Positions 3,273 to 52,416 of a stretch of 64,000 bases of DNA are shown here, piece by piece. Position numbers and translations under genes: made by a program. Each line of letters starts with the position of its first letter. The first letter of the stretch is position 1. The DNA comes from Thermodesulfobium sp. 4217-1 (GTDB lineage Bacteria; Thermodesulfobiota; Thermodesulfobiia; Thermodesulfobiales; Thermodesulfobiaceae), in the NCBI RefSeq assembly GCF_039822205.1, contig NZ_JBAGBW010000004.1, forward strand, positions 31,530 to 95,529. Reading direction: 5' to 3'. The notes below the pieces were generated by a model that worked only from the letters and a program-made list of their open reading frames with translations, ran no database searches and had not been told where the DNA came from.

Positions 3273-4034
3273 ATGAATATTATCCATGCTATTATACTGG
3301 GCATTGTCGAAGGCGTGCTAGAATTTCTACCGGTTTCTGCTGCTGGAAACCTTACTCTTGTGGGAAAACTATTATCAATTCCCTCTTCTGATTTTATAAA
3401 GATTTATGAAATAGTTATGCAGCTTGGTGCAGTCATTGCAGTTTTGATTCTGTATGCAAAAAGACTTTTGGTCGATCATGAAACTATAAAAAAGATAATT
3501 GTAGCCTTTATCCCTACGGGAATCATCGGGCTGCTCGTCTATAAAATAGTTAAAAACTTTCTTCTATATAACGACACTATTACAGTATTTTCCCTCATTG
3601 TAGGCGGCGTAATCATACTTCTCGTCGAATACAAGAAGATTAAACCTTCTACTGTAAACATTTCAAATATCAGCTACAAGCAGGCTTTAGCAATTGGATT
3701 TATCCAAACCCTTGCATTCATACCGGGAGTATCGCGTTCTGGCGCTACAATTGTTGGCGCAATGTTACTGGGAGTTGAAAGAAAGGCAGCAGTAGAGTTC
3801 TCTTTCTTGCTTGCTATTCCTACAATCTTAGCAGCGGGTTCATACGCGCTCTTAAAAGACCATTCAGCTCTTGCAGGGGCAAACCTTTTACCAATGGCAG
3901 TTAGTTTTATAACAGCGCTAATATTCGCAATAATATCAGTAAAAACCTTTTTGAAGTTTATCTCATCAAACAATCTTAAACCGTTTGGATTTTATAGAAT
4001 AATAGTTGGGGTGCTCTACTCAGTCTTCAGATAA
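3273..4034 (+). CDS. uppP: Undecaprenyl-diphosphatase (BacA/UppP family)
   Basis: This 253-residue polytopic protein has the two family signatures: EGVLEFLPVSAAGNL (residues 13-27) and PGVSRSGATIVGAMLLGV near 151. It would dephosphorylate undecaprenyl diphosphate at the membrane, recycling the lipid carrier for peptidoglycan and O-antigen. The first signature is unusual. E. coli BacA reads SSTGH, where the final His is reported as important for catalysis; here the stretch is SAAGN, with both conserved Glu and the Ser-Arg-Ser-Gly motif kept. Some archaeal and divergent homologs also lack that His, so activity is likely but may differ. It ends one base before convergent chrA. The start has AAGGGAG about 10 bases upstream. 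Confidence 0.88.
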   Translation: MNIIHAIILGIVEGVLEFLPVSAAGNLTLVGKLLSIPSSDFIKIYEIVMQLGAVIAVLILYAKRLLVDHETIKKIIVAFIPTGIIGLLVYKIVKNFLLYNDTITVFSLIVGGVIILLVEYKKIKPSTVNISNISYKQALAIGFIQTLAFIPGVSRSGATIVGAMLLGVERKAAVEFSFLLAIPTILAAGSYALLKDHSALAGANLLPMAVSFITALIFAIISVKTFLKFISSNNLKPFGFYRIIVGVLYSVFR

Positions 4035-5505: not shown

Positions 5506-6771
5506 TTATTTTTTATAGCAACTCAAATTATAAATACCCAGCCTGTGAGATTCTTCATAAATATTTACTGCATGCTCTTCTTTATCAAAATAATAAATAC
5601 ACTGTGAATTAAGGTTTGAATCGTATTTAATGAGATTTCTAACTCCATTTGGCATAGCAATAGAAAAAATAAGCATAGATAATCCTAAAGCAATAATATA
5701 AATATAATTGTTTGATTTTTTATCTTTATCTGGCAAAATTGATAGATAGTTAAAAGAAAGCAAAATAATCGGATATATAGAATATCTTGAGCTCAAAGCC
5801 TGCCAGATACCAAAATGAACTCTATCAATAGCTACAGCAAGTGCAGTAAGCGTCACAGCCAACAGGATCAATATTTGGAATTCGCATCGCTTTTTAAAAG
5901 CTATATAAATTGAGCAAAGAAGAAAGACCAAGCCAACTATATATTCATACCTTGTTAAAACCTTAATATTACCAATAAAGTTTAGAACATAAATTAATAT
6001 ATCAGAGAAATGTTTGAGAAAATATGAAAATGAAACACTTGACATGAATTGATAGTTAAAAAATATAAAATAAAAATATGCGTTAATTAAAAACAAAATA
6101 ATTGTAAAAATTGCTTCTTTATTTCTTTTTTTAAAAAATAAATAAATTACTGCAGGTATATAGAAAATAAGTCCTCCTCCACCAGTCCATACTCCTAAAA
6201 GAAGAAAAAATTGATATAAAAGTGCATTCTTAATTGAAAATTTATAAATTAAAAAATAATATGAGAGAAGTAGAAATAATACTTGATAGTATTGCTGAAT
6301 TGATGCCATCGACCATGACATTAATGTGTGCGTTAAAAATGAAAAAAATATAATCGAAATGGGTAGAAGATACTTGAAATTATTAAATTTCTTTTTGTAA
6401 AGCTTATAAATTACGAAAAATGATAATACCCAGCCAAGATTGCCTATGATAGAAAGTACATAAAAGTTTGCCTTGCCCATAATACAATATTGCAACAGTT
6501 CAACTACTCTATTGAAAAATATCCTGTGTTCATTGTGCTGAGAGAACAAAAGCCAGACTTTCTCGCCAAGATTATTGCTAGTAACGAATTTGTTTAGAAA
6601 TCCTAAAACTGCATCGTAGTCATCATCAGCAGGAATGTTTATAGAAAAAATTAAAACTGCTGCGATATAAATTGCAAATGGAAGCAAAACCAACAACCGG
6701 TAAATTTTATCTCTAAACTTATCTGAAAGACTAAATTTCTTAAAAATATCTCTTACGCACTGCATATACAT
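5506..6771 (-). CDS. Polytopic membrane protein, glycosyltransferase-like (paralog of the 17.4-kb gene)
   Basis: The protein has about 421 residues and roughly ten membrane segments. The first large loop carries NIPADDDYDAVLGFLNKF and LLFSQHNEHRIFFNR, an Asp-rich loop after TM1 that resembles the catalytic loop of GT-C-fold transferases using polyprenyl-phosphate sugars. The same motifs recur in the protein at 17419-19152, so the two are paralogs. The frame can be opened to 6858, but that would overlap the upstream gene by 119 bases; ATG at 6771 (or 6765) fits better. It follows a polyprenyl-phosphate GT2 gene, suggesting it transfers the lipid-linked sugar made by that enzyme. It lacks the C-terminal beta domain present in its paralog. 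Specific function is unknown. Confidence 0.65.
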   Translation of the reverse strand: MYMQCVRDIFKKFSLSDKFRDKIYRLLVLLPFAIYIAAVLIFSINIPADDDYDAVLGFLNKFVTSNNLGEKVWLLFSQHNEHRIFFNRVVELLQYCIMGKANFYVLSIIGNLGWVLSFFVIYKLYKKKFNNFKYLLPISIIFFSFLTHTLMSWSMASIQQYYQVLFLLLSYYFLIYKFSIKNALLYQFFLLLGVWTGGGGLIFYIPAVIYLFFKKRNKEAIFTIILFLINAYFYFIFFNYQFMSSVSFSYFLKHFSDILIYVLNFIGNIKVLTRYEYIVGLVFLLCSIYIAFKKRCEFQILILLAVTLTALAVAIDRVHFGIWQALSSRYSIYPIILLSFNYLSILPDKDKKSNNYIYIIALGLSMLIFSIAMPNGVRNLIKYDSNLNSQCIYYFDKEEHAVNIYEESHRLGIYNLSCYKK

Positions 6772-7450
6772 ACCACTTAATATATTTTGGAAGCCATCTA
6801 AAAAGCTTAAAATTGGATTTGCCCTCAGACCTGTCTTTCCAGGTAGAAGGCACTTCACCTATCCTACCACCGTTTAAGAATGTCTTTACAGTTATCTCCA
6901 TGCCTATCTCAAAGCCGCCAGTACTCTCTATATTTATTCTTTTTAGAGCATTTCTACTGTACATCTTGAAGCTATTCGTTACATCGTGAGTAGGTATACC
7001 TATAAGATAGTGAAGGCTGATGCCTGCAAGTCTGGAAAGAAGGCCTTTAAGCTTTGGTCCGCCAAATTGAGCACCGCCTTTCATATACCTTGAGCCGCAA
7101 ACCACGTCATATCCATTTCTTATTAGGTCAAACATCTTATCTGCTACAGATAAGTCATCAGAGAGATCTGCCATCACTACCAGGACTGCATCTTCAGTAG
7201 ATTCCTCTATACCTGTCTTTATGGCATTTAGAGCACCTTTGCCGTATTTATTTCTCAAGAGAGATACTTTGTAATCACCTAAATTAACGCTTTTTAGTGC
7301 CTTTAGGGTAGTATCCTCATCAAAGTCATATACGATGTAGATTCTGTTGTATGACTTTATCTTATTCTTTATTTCGCTAAGCGTTTTAAGGATGTTGTCC
7401 CCTTCGTTGTAAACGGGGACTACAATTCCTAAGGTTATTTCATGGTTCAA
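6740..7450 (-). CDS. Polyprenyl-phosphate glycosyltransferase (GT2, DPM1-like)
   Basis: The protein has 236 residues. The start MNHEITLGIVVPVYNEGDNI is the GT2 opening, VMADLSDD near 93 is the metal-binding DXD equivalent, and GGAQFGGPKLKGLLSRLAG followed by THDVTNSFKMY fits dolichol-phosphate mannosyltransferase relatives. C-terminal membrane spans are absent, so it is probably a soluble or peripheral enzyme. It should load a sugar onto a polyprenyl phosphate, giving the donor for the GT-C-like membrane proteins next to it. Its start is one base from the stop of the epimerase gene, and GtrA, the usual flippase partner, is encoded further upstream in the same operon. Confidence 0.85.
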   Translation of the reverse strand: MNHEITLGIVVPVYNEGDNILKTLSEIKNKIKSYNRIYIVYDFDEDTTLKALKSVNLGDYKVSLLRNKYGKGALNAIKTGIEESTEDAVLVVMADLSDDLSVADKMFDLIRNGYDVVCGSRYMKGGAQFGGPKLKGLLSRLAGISLHYLIGIPTHDVTNSFKMYSRNALKRINIESTGGFEIGMEITVKTFLNGGRIGEVPSTWKDRSEGKSNFKLFRWLPKYIKWYVYAVRKRYF

Positions 7451-8473
7451 TTAGACCTTACCCAGCTCAATTTGTTTTTTTATCCATGGGATTATCTCGT
7501 CTAAGGCCTCTTCCAGGGTTACCTTGGCCTCAAAGTTTAGAAGCCTCTTTGCCTTTGATACGTCAGGAGATCTCTTCTGAACGTCGTATGGAAATGGCTC
7601 ATCTGATACATATCTGAAGGGTTTTGAATTGCCGTGAATCTTTTTCCAGATAATCTGAGCCAGTTCAAGAACAGTGTGAGCTTTAGAGGTGGATATGTTA
7701 AAGTCCTCGTTTACAGCATTTTCGCTTTCAATACAATATCTGATACCCCTTGCAAGGTCTCCTCCATAGGTATAGTGTCTGAGTTGATTTCCACTACCAA
7801 GTATGTGAAGGGGATCTTGGCCCTTTAGGACCTTTTGGACCAGATCTGGGACTACGTGACTCATAGCAAGTTTTACGTTGCCAGACATAACGCTCTCATC
7901 TGAAAGAGCTCTTCTCTCCCCTATTCCAATACAGTTAAAGGGCCTGATAATGGTGTATGGAAGTCTGTATTGTTCCCATGCTCCCTGAGCAAAGTATTCG
8001 CAGGCAAGTTTCTGAAAGCCGTATGTGGAGGATGGAGGCGGACACTTTCTCTCTTCTCCCTCTGGAGTAGGAAATACCGATGTGTTTTCAAATACCATAG
8101 AGGATGAAAGTACGTTTATCTTCTTTAATTTCTTGTTTTTAAATGCCCATATAGCAGCGTCAAAGGTAGATGCTATTATCCTTTCGTTTTCAGCCAAGAG
8201 ATCGTATGCAAACTTGTGAAAATACGGTATGCCTCCTATCATAGCAGCTCCTGCTACCACCTGATCGCAGTCAGAGATTAGCTCCTTTAAGAGTTCTGTA
8301 TCCTTTACGTCTCCTTTTACAAGCCTATACTTTGAATTTGTATCATAGCTTTTAGATAGCTCACCGTATTTTGAAAAGTTATCTATTCCTACTACCTCAT
8401 GGCCGTTGTTCAAAAGCTCTTCTACAAGATATCCTCCTACAAAACCAGCAGATCCAGTTACAAGTATCTTCAT
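7451..8473 (-). CDS. NAD-dependent epimerase/dehydratase (extended SDR)
   Basis: The protein has 340 residues. MKILVTGSAGFVGGYLVEEL contains the G-x-x-G-x-x-G NAD-binding turn, SSSMVF supplies the catalytic Ser, and STYGFQKLACEY gives the Y-x-x-x-K pair. IRPFNCIGIGE is the substrate loop of nucleotide-sugar SDRs. The family includes UDP-glucose 4-epimerase, UDP-glucuronate decarboxylase and 4,6-dehydratases; which reaction occurs here is not clear. The adjacent gene encodes a UDP-sugar 6-dehydrogenase, so conversion of a uronic acid nucleotide (epimerisation or decarboxylation) is plausible. The gene abuts the GT2 gene and lies 18 bases after the dehydrogenase. Confidence 0.85.
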   Translation of the reverse strand: MKILVTGSAGFVGGYLVEELLNNGHEVVGIDNFSKYGELSKSYDTNSKYRLVKGDVKDTELLKELISDCDQVVAGAAMIGGIPYFHKFAYDLLAENERIIASTFDAAIWAFKNKKLKKINVLSSSMVFENTSVFPTPEGEERKCPPPSSTYGFQKLACEYFAQGAWEQYRLPYTIIRPFNCIGIGERRALSDESVMSGNVKLAMSHVVPDLVQKVLKGQDPLHILGSGNQLRHYTYGGDLARGIRYCIESENAVNEDFNISTSKAHTVLELAQIIWKKIHGNSKPFRYVSDEPFPYDVQKRSPDVSKAKRLLNFEAKVTLEEALDEIIPWIKKQIELGKV

Positions 8474-8491
8474 TAAATTAGCCTCCTAAAA

Positions 8492-9712
8492 TTAGATTTG
8501 TTTTTTATTCTTAAAATCCTTTTTAAACATAGTGTTCCACGGATCAATTAATATCTTTTCATCAGGTATCTCTAAATTATTATATTTGCTATGCGGACAG
8601 CCTATGAATATGATATCGCTTTTTTCTATTAACTCATCTTCGGATAAAAATCTAGGATCTTTTATAAATGGATCTGAGCAAAAGAGCGTGCAGTTTTCAA
8701 ACTCTAATATGTGTTTTAACTTGTATGAAAGAGATTCTCTCTTGTCATCGCTATCTGGCTTAAATGCCATGCCAAGAATGCCTACTGTTTTGTTCTCAAG
8801 AGATATTCTTTGTTTTAGCTGCTCTACAAGAAAGTAAGGAAGTCCTTCGTTTACGAGCATAGCTGCATGTCCTAAGAAGAAATTGTTCTTGCTAAAGGCA
8901 GCAAGCTGCATGGTATCCTTAAAAAGACATGGCCCTGCAGTAAAGCCTGCTCTAGGAAGGTCCTTTGCTCTCGGGTAGTTATACACAATAGCATCATATA
9001 TCTTGTAGAAGTCGAGGTCGTTTTGAGAGGCAATCTGATAGAACTGATTTGCAATAGAGAACTTTATATACCTATAAACATTTGTAAAGAGCTTTGCTAA
9101 CTCTGCTTCCATAAAAGAGAGCCTTATTACTTCTGACGTAATAGTCTTAAATAGTTTTTCAGCCTCAGAAAAAGATTCTTCGTCATCAGATGAGATTATC
9201 TGAGGGAGACTGGATATTTCAGATATAGCATAGCCCTGGGCAATTCTTTCAGGACAAAAGGATACCCTTGTCTTCAGATTGTTCTTTCTAAGGTAGTCAA
9301 CAATCTTTTCAGTAGTACCAGGATATACCGTGCTTCTTAAGATTATATGCTGGTCATCTGAAAATAGATTTATAAATCGTGATAGAAAGTCTCTGAATAA
9401 GACAAAATTAGGAGATAGGTGCTCATCTACTGGGGTTCCTATTACTATGACGATGAACTTTGAATCCTTAATTACATCTCTATCGTCAGTAACGAAAAGG
9501 GTTTTATCAAGAGTAGTTTTTAATATTTCATCTGCACCGTATTCCATAAAGGGCATCACTTTATTCTTTACCAGATCTATTGCATCCTTATTAATGTCAT
9601 ACAGGATAGTTTTTAGATTTTTGCTTGCAAAGGATAGTCCAAGTGGTAGTCCCACATGACCTAGACCGCCAACTATACATACGTCATACTTAAAGCTCAA
9701 TTTAACCTCCAA
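8492..9712 (-). CDS. Nucleotide-sugar dehydrogenase (UDP-glucose/GDP-mannose dehydrogenase family)
   Basis: The protein has 406 residues in three domains. VCIVGGLGHVGLPLGLSFA (from residue 11) is the NAD-binding strand-turn-helix, RSTVYPGTTE is the conserved Thr/Pro turn, and AGPCLFKDTMQL carries the catalytic Cys and Lys (usual form GGPCLPKD, so Pro is replaced by Phe). ILGMAFKPDSDDKRES opens the C-terminal UDP-binding domain. The enzyme oxidises C6 of a UDP- or GDP-hexose to the uronic acid with two NAD. It heads the nucleotide-sugar part of the operon, and its product is the likely substrate of the epimerase/decarboxylase that follows. Confidence 0.88.
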   Translation of the reverse strand: MEVKLSFKYDVCIVGGLGHVGLPLGLSFASKNLKTILYDINKDAIDLVKNKVMPFMEYGADEILKTTLDKTLFVTDDRDVIKDSKFIVIVIGTPVDEHLSPNFVLFRDFLSRFINLFSDDQHIILRSTVYPGTTEKIVDYLRKNNLKTRVSFCPERIAQGYAISEISSLPQIISSDDEESFSEAEKLFKTITSEVIRLSFMEAELAKLFTNVYRYIKFSIANQFYQIASQNDLDFYKIYDAIVYNYPRAKDLPRAGFTAGPCLFKDTMQLAAFSKNNFFLGHAAMLVNEGLPYFLVEQLKQRISLENKTVGILGMAFKPDSDDKRESLSYKLKHILEFENCTLFCSDPFIKDPRFLSEDELIEKSDIIFIGCPHSKYNNLEIPDEKILIDPWNTMFKKDFKNKKQI

Positions 9713-9729: not shown

Positions 9730-10182
9730 TTATCTCTTAAAGATTGCCTTGTCGTACACTACATAATTTAACAGTGATGCTATTCCGATTCCAATTGCAA
9801 CATTCAGCATATAGTTTAATTTAAAAAAGTAGTCAAAGAAGGCAAAAGAAACTGTTCTGATGACAATTGCAAATGTGTTGGAAGAGTAGAAAAGAATTAG
9901 TTGTTTTAAAAGCTTGTATCCTTTTTCAAAAACGCAGTCTCTCCATGTCCAGGCCCTGTGTAAAAAAAATGCAAACAATATGCTCAAGATGAGGGCAATA
10001 AAGTTAGAAATATTTTTTAAAAGAGTAGAGTTCATTCTGAAGAGATCTATGAAGACATATATTAGAAGAAAGTTAAAGGCAGCAGAAATTAAACCTATCA
10101 GGATAAACCTAATTACCCTTTCTTTATGCGTGAGAAAAACTTTATCAGCATTCAATTCTAAATCTTTAATATGAACCTCCAA
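9730..10182 (-). CDS. GtrA-family membrane protein
   Basis: This small protein of 150 residues has four predicted membrane helices. RVIRFILIGLISAAFNFLLI opens the GtrA domain, and LSILFAFFLHRAWTWRD is the conserved N/H-R-x-W-T/W motif after TM2. GtrA proteins are thought to flip polyprenyl-phosphate-linked sugars across the cytoplasmic membrane. In this operon it would connect the DPM1-like GT2 enzyme to the GT-C-like transferases. It sits 17 bases upstream of the dehydrogenase gene, with AACCTCCAA (reverse: TTGGAGGTT) giving its partner a good ribosome-binding site. Confidence 0.85.
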   Translation of the reverse strand: MEVHIKDLELNADKVFLTHKERVIRFILIGLISAAFNFLLIYVFIDLFRMNSTLLKNISNFIALILSILFAFFLHRAWTWRDCVFEKGYKLLKQLILFYSSNTFAIVIRTVSFAFFDYFFKLNYMLNVAIGIGIASLLNYVVYDKAIFKR

Positions 10183-10228
10183 TTGGTTGTGATCACAAAT
10201 TAAAAAAACAATTCATAATTATTCTACA

Positions 10229-12618
10229 TTACTTTTCAATATTTAATTCTATTGGCTTAGATTCATAATAACCAGTTTCATCATAATTTATTATTCTTAA
10301 GGTTAAAATGTGTTTCCCATAACTTAATTCGTTCAAAGGTATTGAACCACTAAATCCGGAATATTCATAATTTAAATTATTAAAAGCCTTACTTACATCA
10401 GGTCTTTTGACTCCACTTCCTAACGGATAAAAATATTTATTATCTATTACTGCAATAACACCTCTATCAGCATTTTTTGCAACGCTGTCTACTGCCCAGC
10501 CAGATATTTGGATAATGTCATTTTTATCATTTTTTGTTAGATTTATATCAGTTGGAGGTGTAGGATTTTGTGATAAGTTATATAAAGGTTTTGTATTATT
10601 TAATGTGATTGATTCTATTGTGTAAGAGGTTGGTTGATTTAATAAATGAGTGTTTTGAGTCAAAAAGCTAATATCTTTAAATTTAGCATCAGAATTATAA
10701 AAAATCACATTATAGCTATTATCATAATCTAAGTTTATGCCTTTTGTAATAATTTTAAAAGATTTTATTTTCAAGAGGTTATAAGCATCCCCATTCATTA
10801 TGTCGTTTAAATCGCTTTGGTTTCTAATAAAATATTTTACAAAAAGGTGATCCCCAGATACAGTAGGAATAAATCTATATGGACCAACTATTTGATTGTT
10901 TGATAGCTTAAAAGATATGTAAATTTGGCTAAGAGGTTTGTAAAGAATATCTATAATATGAGATATAAAGGTCGGATTGATATAAATATCCATAAAATCA
11001 GCATTTGAGGGCAAATCAACCCATTGATTTAATTCAGTTTTTATACTTGATATTGAAGTCAAATTTAGATCATGACATGAATCTCTTCTTGTAAGAAGAC
11101 TATACCTATTTCCCTGAATTTCAGTTCTATAACAAGATAATATTGCCATAAAAGTATATGGCTCAGAGAATAAGGGATATCTGTTATCAATATCCTCAAA
11201 TGTGTAAATTATTTTTTGCAAAGCTATATCGCTTAAAATTTGCTTTGCATTCTGCTCATCAAGATATGGAGTATATGCAGAATAAGCTTGTGGGATAATT
11301 TGTGGGGTAAATTTAAAATTATAACCCTGAGCCATCATAAGATCCCAGGGAATTATTGTAACAGATTTATCTCCAATAGTCTGAAGAATCGCTGAATCAA
11401 TTTTAAATTGGTTACGAATAGCGCTATCTGTTGATTGCTGAAGTTTGATTCTTTCGTGTTTGTTAAAACTTAGATTTATAAAATTAATAATGGATTTAGT
11501 ACTATTGGCACCGTTAATATTTACTGAACCACCAATTAAATTAAAGCAAAATATAAACAAGAAAATAAAATTTATGAAATTATTTGACAACCTCATTCTT
11601 GAATAAAGAAGAATGGTAAATGCTATTACAATTATACAAACTGTAAAAAAGGATAAAGCATGTCCGCCAGCTATACCAGGATCCTGTCTAACAAAACCTT
11701 CTTTAAAAACAAGAAATAACAATAATAAAAGTAAAAAAAGTTGAGAAAAAAGAATTTTTTGCTTATTTTTATACGAATTTAAAATTAAATAAATAAAATA
11801 TAAAAGTGTAGTTATCGCACCAAATGTCTGTAAAATCCTACCATTTAAAAACATTGCTGGAGTATATCCTTTTATTATTTCATATACTCCCATAAAGAGA
11901 TCAGGTAAATTAGACAAATTTTGTCCAATAAGTAGATAGATAAGTAGAAAAACTAAGATAAATGAAAATAATCCGACAAAGCCTTGAAAGAAATTTTTTT
12001 TACTTTTGAAATTATATTCTATTAAAAATGGATATATTAGTAAGAATAATATTGAAAAGGGGATAATGTTAAATTTGATAAGCGAGCTAAATGCGAACAA
12101 AGCCCCAGACAAGACATATCTTATCAAAATAATCTTATTATTTTTTATAAAATCGCAATTAAAAGTATCAGCAATTATCAGAGTTGCCATCAGGCAAAGA
12201 AGCATTGAGATAGGGATAGAAGATGATACTATGATGCTAATTGCAATTATATATATATATATATATATGATGCTATTGAATTGTGAATATTAGAATCTTT
12301 GTTCTTAAAAACATATAAATACAGAAAATAAATAAATATTGCACAGAAACTAAGTCTTACAAAAATACTTGTGATAGCTGTTATAAGCCATAACAAATGA
12401 TTGCTATAAAAATAAGTATTCTCCAAAAAGCCAAGAGGTCCAAAGGTAAATATTATCTCTTTACCCCATTGCAAATTATTTGAAAATGCATATCCAAGAA
12501 GCCAGCACCATGATGTGTCTAGAGTATCGCCAGTTGGAGCAAAAACCTTTACAAGATCAGGAATAGTAGTTAAAATAAGAATAAATACAGTTATAATTAA
12601 AAAAGTTTTCTTTCTCAT
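10229..12618 (-). pseudogene. Large polytopic glycosylation protein split at an (AT)10 tract
   Basis: Two frames form one gene. The first (12618 to 12247) encodes 123 residues with an N-terminal membrane span, FAPTGDTLDTSWCWLLGYAF and GPLGFLENTYF, then ends in SYIYIYI and TAA inside a dinucleotide run. The second is open from 12289, crosses the same run as IYIYIYI, and continues through several more membrane helices to 10229. Removing one AT unit joins them into a protein of about 795 residues. The end of the second part is a beta domain (GWAVDSVAKNADRG, PLGSGVKRPDV, YSGFSGSIPLNEL) shared with the 17.4-kb protein. It is probably a GT-C-type transferase for surface glycans. It may be phase-variable rather than dead. 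Confidence 0.72.
12248..12268. repeat. (AT)10 dinucleotide microsatellite inside a coding region
   Basis: An uninterrupted TA/AT run of 21 bases (ten AT units at 12249-12268) lies inside the polytopic glycosylation gene. With 10 units the upstream frame hits TAA at 12249-12247. With 9 (or 6, or 12) units the upstream and downstream frames join. Such tracts change length by slipped-strand mispairing. Confidence 0.9.
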
Positions 12619-12950
12619 TTCTTATAGAAAATTCCTTTCATTTCAATTACTGATCTTTGTACATAACTTTAGATGCAATAAAATATTTCGCATATCCATT
12701 TATATTCCAAATTAAATTTTAATTTTAACAAATTCTATCTTAAAAGTAAAAAAAGCTAATTATAAAAAAGATTTGTACATTGACAATAGCCCTATAAATT
12801 TATACGGTACTCATTTGGATATAAAAAAAGCCTAAAATCATTCGAAATATAAAAAAATTTATTTGTAGCACATTATATTAATAGATTAATATGTGCTTTT
12901 ATTTAAAATTTTTTGTATAATAATGATAAACACAAATGAGGTGTTAATTT
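12619..12950. other. 332-bp divergent intergenic region
   Basis: This AT-rich spacer separates the leftward glycosylation operon from the rightward carbonic-anhydrase-like gene. On the plus strand I see TTGACA at 12780-12785 with TATACG 15 bases later (weak), a terminator-like hairpin at 12867-12897, and TATAAT at 12916-12921 followed by the ribosome-binding site GAGGTG at 12938-12943. No supported gene lies inside. Confidence 0.5.
12867..12903 (+). terminator. Terminator-like hairpin ahead of the carbonic-anhydrase-like gene
   Basis: AGCACA (12867-12872) plus TATTAAT (12876-12882) pairs with ATTAATA (12885-12891) plus TGTGCT (12892-12897), with a 3-base bulge and a 2-base loop. It is followed by TTTTATTT. 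It is AU-rich, so moderate stability only. It lies upstream of TATAAT 12916, so it would end a short transcript or insulate the gene. Confidence 0.4.
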
Positions 12951-35896: not shown

Positions 35897-38402
35897 GTTT
35901 CAATTCCTCATAGGTATCGTAAAAACTTGACCGTTGCTTTTTTTAACGATAAATATAATGTGTACACGTTTCAATTCCTCATAGGTATCGTAAAAACTAG
36001 CCAAAGTAGTTTGTTGAAATCATTTCGTAATTCATGTTTCAATTCCTCATAGGTATCGTAAAAACAATGTAATAAACATGAAGGGCGTGTTTGCTAATTG
36101 CTAGTTTCAATTCCTCATAGGTATCGTAAAAACTCGAAAGAAATCACAGAAGATTTTAATTTGATTTGGTTTCAATTCCTCATAGGTATCGTAAAAACTC
36201 GAAAGAAATCACAGAAGATTTTAATTTGATTTGGTTTCAATTCCTCATAGGTATCGTAAAAACAAATTAGGGATCTCCGAACAGGAGAATATTTATTGTA
36301 GTTTCAATTCCTCATAGGTATCGTAAAAACCGAAATAGCCTGGGTCTTCAGGGTCAAGAATGAAAACATGTTTCAATTCCTCATAGGTATCGTAAAAACC
36401 TTAATAGAGTTAATGTTTATTTTGAAGTATAGACATGTTTCAATTCCTCATAGGTATCGTAAAAACCTATTGGGAACATCAATACAGCTTTATCCCATAC
36501 GAGTTTCAATTCCTCATAGGTATCGTAAAAACCTTAATAGAGTTAATGTTTATTTTGAAGTATAGACATGTTTCAATTCCTCATAGGTATCGTAAAAACC
36601 TCTTTTTTGAGGAGTATTTGTACTGGCGTGATGTGAGTTTCAATTCCTCATAGGTATCGTAAAAACCCTTTATCCCTAAATTCCTTCAAGGCTGGGACAT
36701 CAAGTTTCAATTCCTCATAGGTATCGTAAAAACCATCAATGAGCAACCAATTAGCTGTGTCTGCATGCCGTTTCAATTCCTCATAGGTATCGTAAAAACT
36801 GAGTGGGTGTGTATGTATACATCAAACCGCACTCTGTTTCAATTCCTCATAGGTATCGTAAAAACACAAAGATCAAAGAAGCTTTCCTCACGTGGGAAAG
36901 CTGTTTCAATTCCTCATAGGTATCGTAAAAACTTTAGTACAATTATATATTTTCTTTATATTTTCTATAGTTTCAATTCCTCATAGGTATCGTAAAAACT
37001 GGGATATCTGATTTTGCAAGACAACACGAACTATCTAGTTTCAATTCCTCATAGGTATCGTAAAAACTAAATCCATCTTCATCCACATCTATCCTGGATG
37101 CCCTGTTTCAATTCCTCATAGGTATCGTAAAAACTATATTAATCGAAATCATCATAACCTTCTTCATACTCGTTTCAATTCCTCATAGGTATCGTAAAAA
37201 CTTTTTGCGCATCTTCTTTTGCTTTATCTGTTTTCCCATGTTTCAATTCCTCATAGGTATCGTAAAAACCGTAAAATCTCTTGCTGGGACACTTGATTTA
37301 TTTTGGTTTCAATTCCTCATAGGTATCGTAAAAACTGAACGTGTATAAAGCCAAATAACGTTTAGACTATGTTTCAATTCCTCATAGGTATCGTAAAAAC
37401 AAAGATTTTTACGCTTCCATTTCTGAAGACATACTGTTTCAATTCCTCATAGGTATCGTAAAAACTGCAACAATAAGATCATCAATTGTTTCAAATTTTC
37501 TGTTTCAATTCCTCATAGGTATCGTAAAAACAGTATTTCAGATTATTTAAATAAACACAAAAAATAGTTTCAATTCCTCATAGGTATCGTAAAAACCTTG
37601 CGGAAAAGAAAGCACAGGCAAAACAAGAAAAGAGTTTCAATTCCTCATAGGTATCGTAAAAACCATCTGATCTTCGCTCACTCTTTCCGAGTGAGCGTAG
37701 TTTCAATTCCTCATAGGTATCGTAAAAACTATTTTAGTACTACGCACAATATTATTTTTACACTCGTTTCAATTCCTCATAGGTATCGTAAAAACTCAAA
37801 AATATTCCCAGAAGTAGTTGATTATAGATACAGGTTTCAATTCCTCATAGGTATCGTAAAAACTTTGTATTTTTCTTTGTATTTTTCTTTGTATTTTTTA
37901 GTTTCAATTCCTCATAGGTATCGTAAAAACTATTACAATCAAAACCTAAACAACCTGGATCAATTGGAGTTTCAATTCCTCATAGGTATCGTAAAAACCA
38001 TAACAAAATCTTTATTGGTTTTTGCCCCTTTTGTAGTTTCAATTCCTCATAGGTATCGTAAAAACTTATATTTTGTTGCCCATTGAATGTTATTTGGTTT
38101 CTGTTTCAATTCCTCATAGGTATCGTAAAAACCCATAATCCATATTTCGTTCTCCTTTCAAAAAACATGTTTCAATTCCTCATAGGTATCGTAAAAACAT
38201 ATCATTTGAGCCATTGCTTTGTTATATGCATCTTGGTTTCAATTCCTCATAGGTATCGTAAAAACAGAAGGGAGATGACGATGAGTTAATTATTCTTGGG
38301 GAGTGTTTCAATTCCTCATAGGTATCGTAAAAACAGAGTTACTTAATTTGCTTAGACATGAGCTTGTTATCCGTTTCAATTCCTCATAGGTATCGTAAAA
38401 AC
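35897..38402 (-). CRISPR. CRISPR array, 38 repeats and 37 spacers
   Basis: I counted 38 copies of a 30-base repeat, seemingly all identical; on the plus strand it begins GTTTCAATTCC and ends TATCGTAAAAAC. Spacers are 35-41 bases. Read on the minus strand the repeat ends in ATTGAAAC, the classic 8-base crRNA tag of type I-B, so transcription runs leftwards from a leader at 38403 next to cas2. The newest spacers are at the right and the oldest at the left, beside the III-C operon. Two spacers occur twice: 36134-36168 equals 36199-36233, and 36400-36436 equals 36533-36569. Short frames reading through the array are artefacts. Confidence 0.98.
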
Positions 38403-51984: not shown

Positions 51985-52416
51985 GTTTTTCATTTCTGTT
52001 AAGTAATAGTAAATTAGCAGGAGCGCTCCAATATCAATGTACACATCGGAAAGATTAAAAACCGGCAAAATATGAATATTTATAAAGTCAATTACCTGAT
52101 GAGTGCCAAAAATTCTATCCAATAGGTTACTAGATACGCCAGCAATCAAAAACGACAGAGAAGCCCTCAGATTAGGTATTTTATACCATAACACGATACA
52201 AGATATCAAAAATATAGTTCCAACAAAGATAAAAAAATATGTTTGACCGCTAAGAATCCCCCAAGCCCCCCCCAAGTTCTTAACAAGAACAAACTGTATC
52301 AGAAAAAAATTATAGCTGTGTTCTGCCAAGAACTTGATAGCCAGAAGCTTTGTAAATCTATCAATCAAAAAAATCACAAGAGCAAATACCAGAAAACAAA
52401 AAGACTTAAGCTTCAA
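51970..52416 (-). CDS. lspA: Lipoprotein signal peptidase (signal peptidase II)
   Basis: The protein has 148 residues and four membrane helices. FLIDRFTKLLA, NLGGAWGILSG (usual N-x-G-A-F/W-G), SSNLLDRIFGTHQVIDFI with the first catalytic Asp, and FNLSDVYIDIG with the second (usual F-N-x-A-D) define the aspartic protease that cleaves prolipoprotein signals. The closing residues KNQDRL are encoded by the complement of the rnpB P1 helix, so the two transcripts overlap tail to tail by about 15 bases. It follows ahcY by 44 bases. Confidence 0.92.
   Translation of the reverse strand: MKLKSFCFLVFALVIFLIDRFTKLLAIKFLAEHSYNFFLIQFVLVKNLGGAWGILSGQTYFFIFVGTIFLISCIVLWYKIPNLRASLSFLIAGVSSNLLDRIFGTHQVIDFINIHILPVFNLSDVYIDIGALLLIYYYLTEMKNQDRL

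Follow-up and report, generated by a model that had tools for sequence, protein, structure and literature searches.

Among described dinucleotide frame switches, the mod gene of Mycoplasma mycoides, in which a run within the coding sequence occurs as (AG)12 or (AG)10 (PMC3498834), offers one of the closest parallels to the locus reported here, gene A of Thermodesulfobium sp. 4217-1. In both genes the number of units in a coding dinucleotide run decides between a full-length and a truncated protein, and in both the sequenced strain is off and an on form is found elsewhere, in another clone for mod and in a related genome (G003) for gene A. The two cases differ in that the enzyme activity of mod has been tested and the gene belongs to a host-adapted pathogen, whereas gene A carries an AT unit, encodes a membrane protein and belongs to an apparently free-living thermophile. 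A tract with a TA unit and of similar length controls fimbriae in Haemophilus influenzae, where (TA)9-11 is present at hifA/hifB (as cited in PMC2651432); that tract is part of a promoter and adjusts transcription, whereas the tract of gene A shifts the reading frame. The phase-variable glycosyltransferases of Haemophilus and Campylobacter also use simple repeats to switch the frame of surface-glycan genes (PMC2651432, PMC6321876), but their repeats are mostly tetranucleotides or poly-G and are spread over many loci, in contrast to the single AT tract of this genome, which interrupts a gene for which we infer a glycan role. The gtr operons of Salmonella and phage P22 resemble the present gene neighbourhood in combining GtrA, a GtrB-like GT2 and large membrane proteins and in moving horizontally (PMC2909390, PMC3688519). 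However, they are switched by Dam methylation and OxyR without a repeat, and the gene A product is not recognised as a Gtr protein.

The window, the whole 64,000-nucleotide stretch of DNA that was analysed, comes from a 69-contig draft genome (G000; 33% GC). It contains a perfect TA run (TATATATATATATATATATAT; 10.5 units, 100% perfect) that reads on the coding strand as ten AT units plus A. As the preliminary description held, the run splits one gene, lying between frames of 123 and 658 residues, and both frames enter it from opposite sides as Ile-Tyr codons. In silico removal of one unit (leaving nine) produces a single open frame of 795 residues with no stop, in agreement with the joined protein proposed in that description. 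Removal of four units (leaving six) opens 793 residues and addition of two (giving 12) opens 797, and all other lengths tried lead to a stop after 121–127 residues. Gene A is therefore open at unit numbers divisible by three, and changes in unit number toggle it between full length and an early stop, as expected of a contingency locus. The second-longest alternating AT run in the window measures 9 nt, no other TA run of at least 12 nt is present in the whole window genome (2,000,902 bases, 69 contigs) and Markov models of order 1–5 predict between 0.00004 and 0.0008 runs of at least 21 nt per 2 Mb. The tract is not a product of chance. No AG run of 12 nt was found across the genus genomes searched.

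Table 1. Positions of gene A, its tract and neighbouring features in the window
Feature	Position	Strand	Remarks
Membrane protein	5506..6858	-	34% related to gene B of G003
GT2 glycosyltransferase, polyprenyl-phosphate type (GtrB-like)	6740..7450	-	
NAD-dependent sugar epimerase/dehydratase	7451..8473	-	
UDP-glucose/GDP-mannose dehydrogenase family	8492..9712	-	
GtrA-type flippase, downstream of gene A	9730..10182	-	Pfam PF04138
Segment carrying the tract	9901..12650	.	97-100% identical to G003; recent exchange between species
C-terminal tail of gene A, residues 522-658	10229..10642	-	98-99% identical to gene B of G003
Gene A 3' part, 658-aa open frame	10229..12205	-	No stops
TA tract, 21 nt	12248..12268	.	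Gene A open if unit number is a multiple of three
Gene A 5' part, 123-aa frame	12247..12618	-	First transmembrane segments; stop just past tract

The gene A protein has about ten hydrophobic segments, with the invariant Asp34 after the first and the tract position at the start of the third. Residues Asp34, Ser36, Trp37, Gly60 and Gly63, the last two in a GPLG motif, are invariant in the homologue alignment and all fall within the 123-aa part, so that the 658-aa part alone would be without them; the off state parts these N-terminal residues from the remaining protein. Distant homologues from other lineages and phyla (20–26% identity) are single chains that span the tract site. The 3' frame is open for 686 codons and has its first ATG at 12205, and it could be imagined that both frames are used, with recoding at the tract or a separate start of the 658-aa frame yielding a working protein. 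This is very improbable, because no Shine-Dalgarno-like sequence or other ribosome-binding site precedes that ATG, because the homologues keep the N-terminal part and its invariant residues in one chain and because the gene of G003 is a single frame.

GT-C glycosyltransferases are recognized by many transmembrane helices and a catalytic aspartate in the first outer loop. Sequence searches with the gene A product against Pfam, NCBIfam, PHROGs and the PDB gave no match usable as a family; matches to SLH and eS1 were discarded as they fell below any cut-off. Structure prediction for the intact G002 homologue, based on three sequences, gave a mean pLDDT of 33 and was unusable. Since the product matches no curated family, we infer, rather than assign, a glycosyltransferase activity. 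A role in glycan synthesis is nonetheless likely, judging from the operon neighbours, the hydrophobic segments and the aspartate after the first of them. The earlier designation as a membrane glycosylation gene thus draws on neighbours and topology and finds no counterpart in Pfam, NCBIfam or the PDB.

Gene A heads a tight minus-strand run of genes (Table 1) that is probably a glycosylation operon, and additional glycosyltransferase genes (family 9 and GT2) are located at 516-2635. A Gtr O-antigen modification operon comprises a GtrA flippase, a GtrB bactoprenol glucosyltransferase and a strain-specific membrane transferase; in the present run GtrA scores above its cut-off and a GT2 is present, and the third gene has no family match. 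Truncation of gene A could also be polar on the downstream genes. In G001 the gtrA–dehydrogenase–epimerase–GT2 block exists in two copies that are 98.8% identical (L022:7791-11400 and L035:7719-11351), one behind gene A and the other behind gene B, a second membrane gene that is described below.

Gene A was compared with its relatives in the three other genomes of the genus (G001, G002 and G003), with one sequence per species and with G003 available as a single contig. The tract of G003 is 13 nt long, corresponding to six units, and the frame is intact, encoding 793 residues plus a stop. Around gene A the two genomes differ by 10 substitutions in 2752 aligned columns (0.36% divergence), by one single-base gap and by 8 bp in the tract, such that ten units in G000 face six in G003 between almost unchanged flanks. 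The length polymorphism and the natural in-frame allele expected of a contingency locus are both present, as seen between species and in one pair only. If sequencing or assembly had added one unit by mistake, the tract would really have nine units and gene A would be intact, which would fit the draft state of the genome and the restoration of the frame by one unit less. This is nevertheless an improbable explanation, as a 21-nt dinucleotide tract lies well inside a short read and as nine units against six would still leave the polymorphism standing. The gene A relatives of G001 and G002 are intact, with open frames of 655 and 660 codons and 83% identity, and have no TA run at the tract site, where the segment is AT-rich and no longer a repeat; the tract is thus not conserved.

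The 658-aa part shows a dN/dS of 0.21–0.23 against G002 and G001. It differs from G003 in six codons, with five non-synonymous changes and one synonymous change; when G002 and the tails of gene B serve as reference, four of the five amino-acid differences are derived in G003 and only Lys600 is derived in the window copy. The preliminary description had named accumulating downstream stops as evidence against its reading, and neither stops nor other indels are found across the 658 codons downstream of the tract. With four of five changes on the in-frame G003 side, the off copy shows no sign of decay, as would be expected if the frameshift were recent or reversible. A possible, though rather unlikely, explanation is one-way loss, in which a single slippage of the tract was fixed as a frameshift (for instance in culture), leaving a young pseudogene with no switching role. 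The off frame is found in the sole genome of its kind, the tail of gene A differs between species, indicating that the gene tolerates change, and non-synonymous changes outnumber synonymous ones relative to G003, although just six changes are involved. One-way loss is countered by the undisturbed downstream codons, by the placement of nearly all amino-acid changes on the in-frame side, by the ability of a slipped tract of this length to slip back and by the presence of another long TA run in a gene that shares the tail of gene A.

This second run, of 16 nt (8 units), is located at 385553-385568 of G003, where no other TA run exceeds 15 nt. It lies near the start of gene B, a membrane gene with 597 open codons, and is in frame with it; an out-of-frame gene B was considered and dropped, since upstream of the run, and in frame with it, there is a GTG start with a AGAAAGGA site. 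The last 137 residues are common to gene A and gene B of G003 (Table 1), and the homology extends beyond the stop to the beginning of gtrA, with 97% identity over 619 bp. In G001 and G002 the tail is reduced to a 31-codon remnant adjoining gene A. The tail of gene A in G000 and G003 was thus acquired (or retained) in a form that can be exchanged with the tail of gene B, the simplest route being recombination via the 3' sequence that they share. Of three TA runs in G003 that reach 12 nt, two fall in the two tail-sharing genes and the third (741898) is intergenic and was set aside; this distribution, noted post hoc, is suggestive. In Campylobacter, phase-variation candidates are called from six dinucleotide units upwards (PMC6321876), a cut-off that is reached by gene A, with ten units in G000 and six in G003, and by gene B of G003 with eight.

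Over most of 1.2–22 kb the window is 77–92% identical to G003, and for this reason the possibility that G003 belongs to the same species as G000 was dropped. Against this background, identity to G003 rises to 98–99% at 7201-9000 and is similarly high in the segment that carries the tract (Table 1); from 12.9 kb on the window is 85–97% identical to G002. This mosaic indicates that gene A recently moved between species, and the difference in tract length between G000 and G003 most likely postdates the exchange.

Each of the four genomes encodes one protein with MutS domain V, which in the window genome is a MutS2 (NCBIfam equivalog, 576.6 bits versus a cut-off of 400) that ends in an Smr domain. 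Neither PF01624, the N-terminal domain of MutS, nor PF01119, the MutL family domain, was matched in any of the four genomes, whereas both searches gave matches in 11 of 14 control genomes, so that canonical mismatch repair seems to be missing. Loss of mismatch repair renders dinucleotide runs more mutable, and without MutS1 and MutL slippage of the tract should escape repair.

Since gene A is off at ten units in G000 and intact at six in the sister genome G003, it probably flips by slippage. We therefore favour, with modest confidence, the reading that the tract is a frame-switching SSR contingency locus caught in the off state. The tract would gain or lose units by slipped-strand mispairing, and these changes would remain uncorrected owing to the missing MutS1 and MutL. 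Tracts of 6, 9 or 12 units would give the full gene A protein (∼793–797 residues) and other unit numbers a stop after 121–127 residues with loss of most of the protein; truncation would in turn alter a surface or secreted glycan, and the sequenced genome would represent the off state. The tract, its frame arithmetic and its length difference between genomes are observed, as are the intact homologues and the lack of MutS1 and MutL hits; slippage as the cause, reversibility and a glycan as the product are proposed. The contingency locus proposed in the preliminary description is strengthened by the length polymorphism, the intact frame of G003, the lack of decay and the apparent absence of mismatch repair. 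Counting against it, the length change is observed once, between species, the tract is not shared by G001 and G002, the G000 assembly is a draft, and a repeat can also expand in an AT-rich hydrophobic segment when switching is not under selection.

Other repeats were observed in these genomes. Poly-G tracts of 14, 12 and 14 nt occupy the same intergenic place in three genomes (L069:3752-3765, which is G000:C20:24251-24264; L070:3992-4003; L071, reverse complement 3760-3773), 75–110 bp upstream of a GGDEF-EAL gene of ∼900 aa. The tract is kept though the surrounding intergenic DNA has diverged, and in each genome it exceeds all other G runs in length; it is a candidate promoter-type switch of the c-di-GMP enzyme. 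In G002 a G11 run near a contig end (G002:C91:141-151; L072, reverse complement 3390-3400) directly follows a gene for a subtilisin-like protease; its context is different, and it may be a further tract or an artefact of the assembly at the contig end. In the window itself, the only G/C homopolymer of at least 7 nt is a C8 run at 52266-52273, and a CRISPR-like array with the repeat GTTTCAATTCCTCATAGGTATCGTAAAAAC extends over 36104-37596. A broader and more doubtful proposal is that this free-living thermophilic genus, lacking mismatch repair, runs a few simple-repeat switches, namely the TA runs in the glycan membrane genes with the shared tail and the conserved 12–14 nt poly-G tract, which would couple the surface glycan to the sessile/motile decision and whose alleles would be traded between species.

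From its assignment to Thermodesulfobium, the host bacterium is probably heat-loving and apparently free-living. A survey reports that long simple repeats in prokaryotes accompany dependence on a eukaryotic host and that mono- and dinucleotide runs are suppressed to about the same degree whatever the growth temperature (PMC4060949); a literature search of partial coverage for slippage phase variation in thermophiles found just this survey. The survey ties long simple repeats more to host dependence than to temperature, so that the oddity of the locus, which had been remarked for a thermophile, lies in the apparently free-living lifestyle and not in the heat. The tract is most likely a further SSR contingency locus of a known type in an unexpected organism. 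Contingency loci have been studied almost solely in host-dependent prokaryotes and, if the present reading is true, a switchable glycan gene in an apparently host-free thermophile would suggest that phages or life in biofilms are what drives it.
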